A model generated the notes under the pieces. It was not told where the DNA came from and searched no databases. It worked only from the letters and a program-made list of their open reading frames with translations. Of a stretch of DNA of 64,000 nucleotides, positions 8,944 to 13,112 are shown in pieces. The position numbers were made by a program, and so were the translations under genes. Each line of letters begins with the position of its first letter. The first letter of the stretch is position 1. This DNA comes from Haloferax mucosum ATCC BAA-1512 (GTDB taxonomy: Archaea; Halobacteriota; Halobacteria; Halobacteriales; Haloferacaceae): positions 248,001 through 312,000 of the forward strand of contig NZ_AOLN01000001.1 of assembly GCF_000337815.1 (NCBI RefSeq), in the 5' to 3' direction.

Positions 8944-9654
8944 CTACGCTGATTTCGTCGTCTCCGTCTCGGCTGTCGTCCCTCCGGTGCTTTCAGACGG
9001 CGTTTCGGCTGGCGATTCAGGCGGCGTGTCGGTCAGCGAGTCCGAAGGGGTCTCAGCGGGTGTCGCAGTAGGCGTCTCACTGGGCGTACAAATCTCCCCG
9101 TCGGCCGATTCATCGTCCGCATCGTCCGGCGTCTCTGGGGGTTCAGACGCCGCGTCGTCGGGATTCGCTGTCGGCGTCTGCGTCTCGGTCGTGTTCTCCG
9201 GCTCCCTTGATTCGGTCCCCATTTCGTTCGTCTTCGGGCCCTCAGTCTCCGTTTCGTTCGCCGCAGTCTGGGGCGTTTCCGGTGTTTCGGACGGTTCCGG
9301 CGAGTCGGGTGAGGCGGGGGGTTCAGGCGTTTCCGGCATCGTCTGGTTCTCCGCCGGTGCTGTCTGGTTCTCCGCCGGTACGGTCTGATTCGCTGGTGTC
9401 GTCTCGTTCGAATCTATCGTCGTCCAGTTCGCGGCGGGCGTCGGGGCCGTCGTTGCAGTGGTCTCGGACTCGGTCTCGTTCGGACCCTCGGGGATGTTCG
9501 ACACGTCGGGTGGCGTAAAAACGCCAACACCGAAGGCGGCGCTCGCGGTCTCAGAGTCGGTCAACGCACCGTACGTGTACGCGCCGGTCGAGCCAACCAG
9601 CAGTCCGAAGACGAGCACGCCGACGAGCGCATTCCCGAGTTCGCCACGCTTCAC
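8944..9654 (-). CDS. Secreted SipW-dependent-type protein with Thr/Pro/Glu-rich stalk
   Basis: 236 aa, starting at GTG (9654) inside the stop of the signal peptidase gene (GTGA overlap). The leader KRGELGNALVGVLVFGLLVG is a hydrophobic signal, and the following YTYGALTDSETASAAFGVG resembles the TasA/camelysin pattern after the signal (a short A-x-x-T-D-x-E-T segment). Residues 50-236 are a low-complexity stalk of Thr, Pro, Glu, Asn and Ser with N-glycosylation sequons (NET, NQT, NTT). Likely a surface-exposed or cell-wall stalk protein processed by the adjacent peptidase. No folded domain is visible in the tail. Confidence 0.75.
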   Translation of the reverse strand: MKRGELGNALVGVLVFGLLVGSTGAYTYGALTDSETASAAFGVGVFTPPDVSNIPEGPNETESETTATTAPTPAANWTTIDSNETTPANQTVPAENQTAPAENQTMPETPEPPASPDSPEPSETPETPQTAANETETEGPKTNEMGTESREPENTTETQTPTANPDDAASEPPETPDDADDESADGEICTPSETPTATPAETPSDSLTDTPPESPAETPSESTGGTTAETETTKSA

Positions 9655-10199
9655 GCGTCTCCACCTTCGTTCTCCCTCCTTTCGTTTCGGTCTCCCCGGA
9701 CCAGTGCGTGGAGTTCGGTGACTGCGAGCAACCCGGCAGGAACGATGATTAATGAGAATTTCCCGAGCGGCGTGCCAGCGAAGGAGACGACGTAGCCGAA
9801 CCACGGGATATGGAACATGACGACGCCGACGACGCGGTCCGCACGGACTAGGCCGGGGTCTGGGTCCTCGTTGGCGTCGCCTTTCGTCTCGAAGTACAGG
9901 CCGTCCGTGCGCTCGTGTACCTCGACGACGCGGTGCGTCACGCGCACGTCGCTTTTCGACCCGTAGCCGCCGGGGGCGAAGGTGATGACGTCGCCTTCGG
10001 CGATTGTGTCGGTCGGTCGCTCGTCGAGGATGACGACGTCTCCAGCACCGATACTGGGTTCCATACTACCCGTGAGGACGACGTAGCTGTGTTCGGCACC
10101 GACGAGTGCGGGAACCGCGTAAACGGCCGCGGCGGCGACGGCGACGACGATGGCCAGCACGCCAACGGCCCGAAGCGAGCGTGAGACGGATGAGTGCAT
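9651..10199 (-). CDS. Signal peptidase I, S26B (SipW/Sec11-like)
   Basis: 182 aa membrane protease. N-terminal helix (12-33), catalytic serine in LTGSMEPSI near residue 45, catalytic histidine in VTHRVVEV near 88 (the archaeal/ER type uses His instead of Lys), the GDANEDPDPG box with a conserved Asp near 110, and a C-terminal hydrophobic helix (140-165). It sits between two genes whose products carry SipW-type leaders, so it is probably a dedicated peptidase for them and not the housekeeping enzyme. The middle gene of a three-gene operon on the minus strand. Confidence 0.9.
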   Translation of the reverse strand: MHSSVSRSLRAVGVLAIVVAVAAAAVYAVPALVGAEHSYVVLTGSMEPSIGAGDVVILDERPTDTIAEGDVITFAPGGYGSKSDVRVTHRVVEVHERTDGLYFETKGDANEDPDPGLVRADRVVGVVMFHIPWFGYVVSFAGTPLGKFSLIIVPAGLLAVTELHALVRGDRNERRENEGGDA

Positions 10200-10255
10200 A
10201 TGTTTCGTTGTTGATTTGATTCGCCGAAGGCGGGTGACGCCGCCGTCAGCCGGTA

Positions 10256-11401
10256 TTATTGGACGAGGATTTCGACGCCTGTCTCGTCGGCGAGGTCGGT
10301 GCTTCCGAGCGTGATGTCGCCGGTGACGGTCACGCCGCTGTCGAACGACCCAACGTCGAGTTGGATGCCGAGGGTCTCACCGCCGCTGTCGATGGACAGC
10401 GACCCGGGGGCGACGGGGATACCGTCGATTGCGAGGTTCTCGACGGTGACGTCGCCGCTCTTGAGAACCAAGGCGATGACGCCGCTCGTCGTGTCGGCCA
10501 CGTCGATGACGCCGGTTCCGGTCCCGTCAACGTCGAGCGACGCGGTGTCGCCGTCGGTCTCGAATGCGAAGCCGGCGGGCGAGCCATCGATGTCCCACGT
10601 CCGGTACGCGCCGGTCCCATCGACTTGGACGGACTCGGCCGTGCTGTCGGCGGTGTCGCCGCGAATCATCTTGCCCTTGAACGTCTCCGACCCGTTCCAG
10701 ACCGGGTAGCCCGTGTATTTCCCGCTCGTCGTGAACGCGAACCCGGACTGGCCGTCGATAACGTCTCCGAGCACCGCCTGCATCATGTCGAAGGCGAAAT
10801 CGACTTCGAAGCTATCGGTCTGAATCGTCGGCGGCGCGGACGAAGGGAGCTTCCAGTCGAGGCAGAAATCGACTTCCCCGCTCACGTCGAGCGGGTAGTG
10901 GGTGTTGAACGTCTTCCCCGATTGCAGGCGGTTGGTGGCCTTTCGGTATTGGTCGTCGCCGAGGTAGGTTCGGTTGCCCGACCCGTCTTCGAAGTACATC
11001 CGAACGAGCAGGTGTTCGCCGAGTTCGCCCGCTCCGGTCGTGTCTCCCGCCTCTTTTTCCATCTCTTCGCGGCCGTTTTCGCTGTCCGCGACGCGAGTGA
11101 TGCGAACGTCAACCGCTCCTGCGACGTTGCTCCCATTCGAGTTCGTTAGCGTCACGCAACCGATTCCGCTGTCACCGGGGACGATGGAGTTACTTCCCGT
11201 GTCGATGAGGGTGACGCTCGAATCCCCGCCGTCGATTCGGAGGTCCATCCGACCCGCGTATATCTGGTTTCCGTTGCTGTTTTCGGTATCGTTCAGTGCG
11301 GCAATCGTTCCTGCACCTGCGGTCGCGGATGCGACGCCGATGAGGGCGAGTCCACCGAGGACCTTCCGACGCGACAGTTCGATTGTATTGTCGTCCGTCA
11401 T
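10256..11401 (-). CDS. TasA/camelysin-like secreted protein (SipW-dependent type)
   Basis: 381 aa. N-terminus carries a twin-arginine-like leader (SRRKVLGGLALIGVASATAG) and then the segment TIAALNDTENSNGNQIYAGR, like the start of mature TasA/CalY proteins. Residues 45-230 contain TasA-like strand motifs (DSGIGCVTLTNSNGSNVAGA; DVRITRVADSENG; VDFCLDWKLP); residues 235-381 are a Gly/Thr/Asp-rich beta region with short repeats (DVDGTGTG, VDGTGAY). First gene of the operon with the SipW-like peptidase 56 bp downstream. TasA forms biofilm fibres in Bacillus, and archaeal bundling pili use a related fold by donor-strand exchange; a similar role here is inferred. Confidence 0.72.
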   Translation of the reverse strand: MTDDNTIELSRRKVLGGLALIGVASATAGAGTIAALNDTENSNGNQIYAGRMDLRIDGGDSSVTLIDTGSNSIVPGDSGIGCVTLTNSNGSNVAGAVDVRITRVADSENGREEMEKEAGDTTGAGELGEHLLVRMYFEDGSGNRTYLGDDQYRKATNRLQSGKTFNTHYPLDVSGEVDFCLDWKLPSSAPPTIQTDSFEVDFAFDMMQAVLGDVIDGQSGFAFTTSGKYTGYPVWNGSETFKGKMIRGDTADSTAESVQVDGTGAYRTWDIDGSPAGFAFETDGDTASLDVDGTGTGVIDVADTTSGVIALVLKSGDVTVENLAIDGIPVAPGSLSIDSGGETLGIQLDVGSFDSGVTVTGDITLGSTDLADETGVEILVQ

Positions 11402-11873: not shown

Positions 11874-13112
11874 ATGGGTAAGAACTACGCGGACCTTCAC
11901 GACCCGAACGCGGAGTACACGATGCGGGAGCTTTCCGCGGAGACGATGGGCGTGACCGCAAAGCGCGGTGGCGGCCGAGACGTGGAAATCACGGACGTAC
12001 AGACGACGATGGTGGACGGGAACTTCCCGTGGACACTTGTCCGCATCTACACCGACGCCGGTATCGTCGGCACCGGTGAGGCCTACTGGGGCGCTGGCGT
12101 TCCGGAACTCATCGAGCGCATGAAGCCCTTCATCGTGGGCGAGAACCCGCTCGACATCGACCGGCTGTACGAGCACCTCGTGCAAAAGATGTCCGGCGAA
12201 GGCTCCGTCGAGGGCGTCACCGTCACCGCCATCTCCGGCATCGAAATCGCCCTGCACGACCTCGCGGGCAAGATTCTCGAAATCCCGGCCTACCAACTGC
12301 TCGGCGGCAAGTACCGCGACAAGGTTCGCGTCTACTGTGACTGCCACACGGCCGACGAGGCCGACCCCGAAGCCTGCGCCGACGAGGCAGAACGCGTCGT
12401 CGAGGAACTCGGTTACGACGCCCTGAAGTTCGACCTCGACGTGCCGTCCGGACTCGAAAAGGACCGCGCCAACCGACATCTCCGTCCTGGCGAGATTCGA
12501 CACAAAGCCGAAATCGTCGAAGCCGTCACCGAGCGCGTGAAAGACCGCGCAGACGTCGCGTTCGACTGCCACTGGACCTTCTCGGGCGGCAGTGCGAAGC
12601 GCCTCGCCGCCGCTATCGAGGACTACGACGTCTGGTGGCTCGAAGACCCCGTCCCGCCGGAGAACCTCGAAGTCCAAGAGGAAGTCACGAAGTCCACCCT
12701 TACCCCCATTACGGTCGGCGAAAATCGCTACCGCGTGACCGAACTCCGCCGTCTCATCCAGAATCAGGCGGTCGATATCGTCGCCCCCGACATGCCCAAG
12801 GTCGGCGGCATGCGCGAGACACAGAAGATTGCGGACGTGGCGAACCAGTACTACGTTCCGGTCGCTATGCACAACGTCTCGTCGCCGGTTGCGACGATGG
12901 CCTCCGCGCACGTCGGCACGGCGATTCCGAACTCGCTGGCCGTCGAATACCACTCCTACGAACTCGGCTGGTGGGAGAACCTCGTCGAAGAGACCGTCAT
13001 CGAAGACGGCTACATCGAGATTCCGGAAGAGCCGGGTCTCGGCCTGACGCTCGATATGGACGCCGTCGAAGCGCACATGGTCGAAGGCGACACGTTGTTC
13101 GACGAGGAGTGA
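11874..13112 (+). CDS. gnaD: D-gluconate dehydratase (enolase superfamily)
   Basis: 412 aa. Converts gluconate to 2-keto-3-deoxygluconate, the first committed step of the semi-phosphorylative Entner-Doudoroff pathway of haloarchaea. Mandelate racemase/enolase-superfamily features: capping domain (1-150) with AYQLLGGKYRDKVRVYCD at the hinge, then the barrel with DCHWTFS (first metal Asp), WLEDPVPPEN (Glu), ITVGENRY (Glu), VAPDMPKVGGM and the catalytic-base region AMHNVSSP (His). No signal. It is a single gene with its own promoter; substrate assignment comes from homology and from the H. volcanii gene of this neighbourhood. Confidence 0.9.
   Translation: MGKNYADLHDPNAEYTMRELSAETMGVTAKRGGGRDVEITDVQTTMVDGNFPWTLVRIYTDAGIVGTGEAYWGAGVPELIERMKPFIVGENPLDIDRLYEHLVQKMSGEGSVEGVTVTAISGIEIALHDLAGKILEIPAYQLLGGKYRDKVRVYCDCHTADEADPEACADEAERVVEELGYDALKFDLDVPSGLEKDRANRHLRPGEIRHKAEIVEAVTERVKDRADVAFDCHWTFSGGSAKRLAAAIEDYDVWWLEDPVPPENLEVQEEVTKSTLTPITVGENRYRVTELRRLIQNQAVDIVAPDMPKVGGMRETQKIADVANQYYVPVAMHNVSSPVATMASAHVGTAIPNSLAVEYHSYELGWWENLVEETVIEDGYIEIPEEPGLGLTLDMDAVEAHMVEGDTLFDEE

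Follow-up and report, generated by a model that had tools for sequence, protein, structure and literature searches.

Among the known systems closest to the locus presented here is tapA-sipW-tasA of Bacillus subtilis, which combines a TasA-like subunit, a dedicated S26B peptidase, and a donor-strand partner gene that overlaps the peptidase gene, with tapA lying upstream of sipW (PMC10151520). The TasA donor strand comprises residues 28 to 38, and its buried contacts include F29 and F39 (PMC9674648); TapA residues 44 to 57 alone support biofilm formation (PMC10151520). Bacillus cereus sipW-calY likewise pairs a PF12389 protein with a cognate SipW, and its camelysin fibres are formed without a TapA homologue, a second camelysin being the presumed partner (PMC10151520). 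Archaeal TasA-like subunits are also known from the bundling pili of Pyrobaculum (AbpA) and the AbpX fibres of Pyrodictium, in both of which subunits are joined by donor strands (PMC9674648, PMC11952670). We found no description of SipW or TasA in haloarchaea in the open-access literature; an earlier mention is possible.

We present here a three-gene locus from a 64,000-nucleotide stretch of Haloferax mucosum DNA (the window), which we read, with a probability of about 0.6, as a module for filaments that would be assembled by donor-strand exchange. A first-pass annotation had suggested a SipW/TasA-like system at this position; our analysis supports that reading as a candidate and revises its scale, the nature of the third gene, and the likely export route.

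Locus organization

The three overlapping or closely spaced genes of the first-pass annotation were recovered on the minus strand with the same order and coordinates. Their features are as follows.

10256..11401, minus strand: gene 1, putative filament subunit of TasA/camelysin type, 381 aa, P0001 (TIGR04088, family profile against PDB, VIA)
11300..11401, minus strand: gene 1 leader, residues 1-34, with SRRKVLGG, h-region, and GTIA (sequence, RR conservation)
11252..11299, minus strand: gene 1 predicted donor-strand segment, residues 35-50, ALNDTENSNGNQIYAG (inferred from TIGR04088 match and TasA register)
10766..11251, minus strand: gene 1 predicted TasA-like beta-sandwich domain, residues 51-212 (alignment, profile, predicted fold, VIA)
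10259..10765, minus strand: gene 1 extra C-terminal beta-rich domain, residues 213-381 (identity between Haloferax species)
10200..10255, minus strand: spacer separating genes 1 and 2, 56 nt, GC-rich hairpin (folding z -1.2 to -3.3)
9651..10199, minus strand: gene 2, SipW-type S26B signal peptidase, 182 aa, P0002 (TIGR02228, NF046067, catalytic residues)
10065-10067, 9933-9935, and 9876-9878, minus strand: P0002 catalytic residues Ser45, His89, and Asp108 (conservation)
8944..9654, minus strand: gene 3, protein with a predicted donor strand and a stalk, 236 aa, P0003, GTG start (coupling, motif, composition)
9568..9654, minus strand: gene 3 leader, residues 1-29, without twin-arginine motif, Sec type (sequence, homologous leaders)
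9517..9567, minus strand: gene 3 predicted donor strand, residues 30-46, ALTDSETASAAFGVGVF (motif register, alternation)
8947..9516, minus strand: gene 3 Thr/Pro/Glu-rich low-complexity stalk, residues 47-236 (composition)

Genes 1 and 2 are separated by 56 nt, and genes 2 and 3 overlap by 4 nt (GTGA). Orthologous loci in H. profundi, H. larsenii, and H. elongans contain the identical gene set in identical order. Because the gene 1 leader and gene 2 score above the cut-offs of TIGR04088 and TIGR02228, respectively, the locus is not a chance assembly of reading frames. The GC-rich hairpin in the spacer after gene 1 is found in four of four Haloferax loci, at a position common to the three other species and with differing sequence; its folding scores (z -1.2 to -3.3) are individually weak, and control of the ratio of subunit to accessory proteins is a possible role.

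The module is flanked by genes for a HAD-type hydrolase (6089-7309) and an MR/MLE enzyme (11874-13112), both of which are present in 15 of 15 Haloferax genomes. Spacing was compared in 13 of these, leaving out G243 and G252: the gap between the flanking genes is 3.4 to 4.9 kb in the four genomes with the module at this site and about 1.5 to 2.4 kb in the nine without it. Seven genomes lacking the module here, including G126 and G236, encode a more distant peptidase elsewhere in the genome. From this spacing and these peptidases, the module is a presence/absence locus in the genus. The window also contains, in the flank of the module, a gene for a small PF17648 "Luciferase domain" protein (8441-8887) and, at 7419-7500, short tandem repeats whose plus-strand reading gives DTDRRG units.

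Gene 1, a TasA-like protein

P0001 matches TIGR04088 (SipW-cognate signal peptide) over residues 18 to 50 with 25.1 bits against a cut-off of 19, a class assignment that covers the leader and not the module. The leader is followed by AALNDTENSNG, and residues 35 to 50 are in register with TasA A28-G42, from which register cleavage is predicted at A34/A35. The stretch from the conserved Asp to the following hydrophobic position is one residue longer in the subunits than in TasA, so their strand register may differ. Against PDB, P0001 alone had no match by phmmer, and no relatives were found in the viral contigs searched. Its PF12389 scores (15.7 bits alone and 16.8 bits for residues 1-215) are below the Pfam gathering score of 22.5, which is an annotation threshold and not a biological feature; the family is matched by 20 of 22 haloarchaeal P0001 relatives (best, 2e-14).

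A domain profile built from 22 homologues was searched against all PDB sequences. B. subtilis TasA was the top match (5of1 and 5of2, 1.7e-6; 8aur, 2.4e-6) and spanned profile positions 41 to 207, the whole domain. P0001 keeps this domain in full, down to the Q-x-D strand motif at its C-terminal end. The next sequence had an E value of 0.17; AbpX, at 0.53, was not significantly similar, and AbpA was not among the matches listed. A structure model of P0001 built from four sequences had a pLDDT of 48 and a pTM of 0.45, and a single-sequence fold (pLDDT 41) was set aside as unusable. VIA re-ranking of the four-sequence model placed TasA first and second (5of2, Z 8.8 with 142 residues aligned; 5of1, Z 8.7 with 155); the TasA fibre 8aur had Z 7.3 (132 aligned), and unrelated sandwiches with about 100 residues aligned came within 1 Z of TasA. 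This comparison did not refute the TasA-like fold proposed in the first-pass annotation. Foldseek of the same model against PDB gave low-TM matches, with TasA absent from the best 50. The model being weak and TasA being absent there, the case for the fold leans on the sequence profile, and the fold evidence taken alone would be a tie. On the independent profile together with the VIA re-ranking, we consider it very probable that P0001 is homologous to TasA, as first proposed.

The extra C-terminal domain (residues 213-381) shares 36 to 43% identity between Haloferax species, versus 67 to 84% for residues 33-212, and a search of the examined ORFs with its profile gave three further haloarchaeal proteins. 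The domain probably serves as a decoration exposed at the surface.

Gene 2, an S26B signal peptidase

P0002 scores 98 bits against TIGR02228 (archaeal signal peptidase I; cut-off, 51.85), and Ser45, His89, and Asp108 are identical in 98 of 98 sequences. NF046067, the Bacillus SipW equivalog model, matches with an E value of 2e-29 and 102.5 bits, under its cut-off of 190, which makes P0002 SipW-like but places it outside the Bacillus equivalog group. At least one other S26B peptidase over cut-off is encoded on contig C10 of the same genome and was not recovered with P0002 as the query at an E value of 1e-3; gene 2 is thus distinct from the housekeeping peptidase. These results agree with the dedicated S26B peptidase of the first-pass annotation: gene 2 is presumably such an enzyme, and it probably trims the TasA-like protein.

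Gene 3, a predicted donor-strand-plus-stalk protein

P0003 had no family match in Pfam and curated-model searches, TIGR04088 included. Codon-position GC alone does not separate gene 3 from an opposite-strand ORF; it is distinguished by a leader conserved between species and by its conserved overlap with the peptidase gene. In 84 of 97 peptidase loci (80 of the 97 chosen by peptidase alone), an ORF with a hydrophobic leader has its start -14 to +1 nt from the peptidase stop codon, with a four-base overlap in 49 and a one-base overlap in 13. Two loci (L047 and L050) have the stalk gene upstream of the peptidase gene and overlapping its start, the arrangement of tapA and sipW.

The products of these ORFs after the peptidase stop usually contain the motif T-x-A-x-[LF]-S-D-x-E, a strand of amphipathic character, and a tail of low complexity. 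The Asp-centred motif fits 60 of 86 stalk ORFs, which when aligned read T(-6) x A(-4) x [LF](-2) S D(0) [ST] E(+2), followed by polar/hydrophobic alternation; the D-x-E motif is replaced in some homologues. Among these 60, position -2 is 100% hydrophobic, the hydrophobic fraction is 0.80, 0.50, 0.87, and 0.62 at +4, +6, +8, and +10 and 0.13, 0.08, 0.12, and 0.23 at +3, +5, +7, and +9, and the alternation is 0.55 against a within-sequence shuffle maximum of 0.15. The T-x-A-x-[FL]-S-D-x-E register is common to the TasA-like subunits and the stalk proteins, and stalk positions -2 and +8 correspond to TasA F29 and F39. With TasA A28 set on P0003 A30, a gap-free alignment pairs F29 with L31 and F39 with F41. 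It draws on the PDB profile alignment, a published description of TasA residues (PMC9674648), and the N-terminal sequence of TasA.

Past the strand, P0003 consists of about 92% T/P/S/E/D/N/G/Q/A; the tail of 186 residues contains T41 P31 E31 A21 S16. The protein has eight N-X-S/T N-glycosylation sequons, and no C-terminal anchor was found in it. The stalk ORF of locus L098 ends in PGFDFAAGVLAALAALALLVRRAES, a PGF-CTERM-like surface anchor.

The first-pass annotation had cast the stalk protein as the TapA-like partner. The predicted donor-strand N-terminus and the gene coupling lend this role further support; P0003 is not a TapA homologue, since the Ig-like core is absent, and at most it resembles the N-terminus of TapA in action. 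Given the strand register with TasA and the sufficiency of TapA residues 44 to 57, the sequence of P0003 suggests a naturally occurring starter reduced to a strand on a stalk.

Export route

RR is invariant across the 22 aligned P0001 homologues and is carried by 255 of the 259 leaders in the subunit family, with a Tat-like context in 246, a count biased upward because the profile was built on RR-bearing sequences. The stalk leaders mostly lack it (RR in 11 of 86, strict Tat motif in 3). This suggests that the TasA-like subunits are exported by Tat and the stalk proteins by Sec. If so, the subunits would traverse the membrane folded, unlike TasA.

Distribution among haloarchaea

The system is confined neither to this genome nor to Haloferax. 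A survey of 243 genomes of the order recovered P0001-like proteins in 83 and P0002-like peptidases in 91; 82 genomes have both, 1 has only the former, 9 have only the latter, and 151 have neither (Fisher P = 4e-53, for genomes that share ancestry and are not independent events). A TasA-like ORF lies within about 6 kb of the peptidase in 96 of the 97 loci. H. volcanii and 11 of the 15 Haloferax genomes gave TIGR04088 matches. Roughly one in three haloarchaeal genomes encodes the TasA-like and peptidase parts, usually with a stalk gene, so the module is probably a widespread surface-filament system.

Variants were also observed. Two Haloferax genomes (G126 and G236) have no recognisable stalk gene; the peptidase gene is followed instead by one for a 628- to 637-aa protein with no recognisable leader and a C-terminal TasA-like domain (L041:8951-10864 and L042:5454-7340), which is a different answer to the partner problem. 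The present genome encodes a second SipW-cognate protein on contig C15 (L036:71-1432), 453 aa long with a TasA-like N-terminus, which scores 23.2 bits against PF12389, over the cut-off, and has relatives in G239 and G245. No S26 peptidase was found near it in the 12 kb examined, and P0002 may act on it in trans. In genomes belonging to the same family (L083-L103 and similar loci), the SipW-like ORF is often extended to 320 to 530 aa and accompanied by four to twelve SipW-cognate domains.

Proposed assembly and alternatives

In the filament reading, gene 1 would encode the subunit, exported through its twin-arginine leader. The gene 2 peptidase would cut at about A34/A35 and free the N-terminal strand. 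The freed strand would lodge in the open groove of the following subunit's beta-sandwich, the mode of assembly known from TasA fibres and archaeal bundling pili. The outside of the filament would be decorated by the fast-diverging C-terminal domain. Gene 3, translationally coupled to the peptidase gene, would provide the first donor strand on a disordered, probably glycosylated stalk, acting like the short TapA N-terminus that starts TasA fibres, and would probably keep the base of the filament close to the membrane and S-layer. Weighing against this reading are the weak structure model, the PF12389 score of P0001 below the gathering score, the extra residue in the subunit strand region, the two Haloferax genomes with no recognisable stalk gene, the upward bias of the subunit RR count, and the lack of a C-terminal anchor in P0003. 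More tentatively, haloarchaea may possess a distinct kind of donor-strand filament, in which folded Tat-exported subunits carry a leader-joined strand unlocked by an S26B peptidase, and a Sec-exported strand-plus-stalk protein, coupled to the peptidase, serves as starter and tether.

The coupling of gene 3 to the peptidase gene and not to the subunit gene would also fit a membrane-tethered protein that serves the peptidase as partner or substrate adaptor, with an uncleaved leader, a stalk through the S-layer, and an overlap that reflects a fixed complex. Such a role accords with the lack of any membrane anchor in P0003 besides the leader and with the substitution of D-x-E in some homologues. 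We think it unlikely: the segment after the gene 3 leader has the cleavage-region motif and strand register of the subunits together with buried-strand alternation, neither of which a bare anchor would require, and the L098 stalk protein has a C-terminal anchor of its own.

The subunits themselves might not polymerise. In many haloarchaeal relatives of 450 to 700 aa, the match to P0001 is limited to some 60 residues at the N-terminus, so the leader serves varied proteins, and P0001 has a large extra domain; the TasA-like proteins could then be secreted or S-layer-associated monomers and the module a surface-protein secretion cassette. This seems doubtful to us, as P0001 retains the entire TasA domain, Q-x-D strand motif included, and elsewhere a peptidase dedicated to leaders of this kind goes with strand-exchange fibres (PMC9674648, PMC10151520). 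The name of PF12389, "Camelysin metallo-endopeptidase", would point to a metalloprotease, a reading that we rejected as very improbable: the family also takes in the structural fibre protein TasA, and a metal-binding His or Cys cluster is absent from the columns that are invariant in the 22 homologues.

Relation to known systems

The haloarchaeal locus shares with tapA-sipW-tasA the leader motif and strand register but differs in gene order (tasA-like, sipW, stalk), in the twin-arginine leader of the subunit, in the extra C-terminal domain of about 170 fast-diverging residues, which TasA lacks, and in a partner without the Ig-like core of TapA. Its proposed partner is a strand plus stalk, whereas that of B. 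cereus is presumed to be a second camelysin.

If the filament reading is correct, a filament system that is not of the type IV kind is present in roughly one in three haloarchaea, among them, on family-model evidence, the tractable model H. volcanii, and could account for part of the haloarchaeal biofilm matrix. A euryarchaeal branch with another export route would then join the bacterial TasA fibres and the crenarchaeal bundling pili. Gene 3 would represent a natural minimal TapA, in which evolution may have retained only the strand that sufficed in the TapA truncation.
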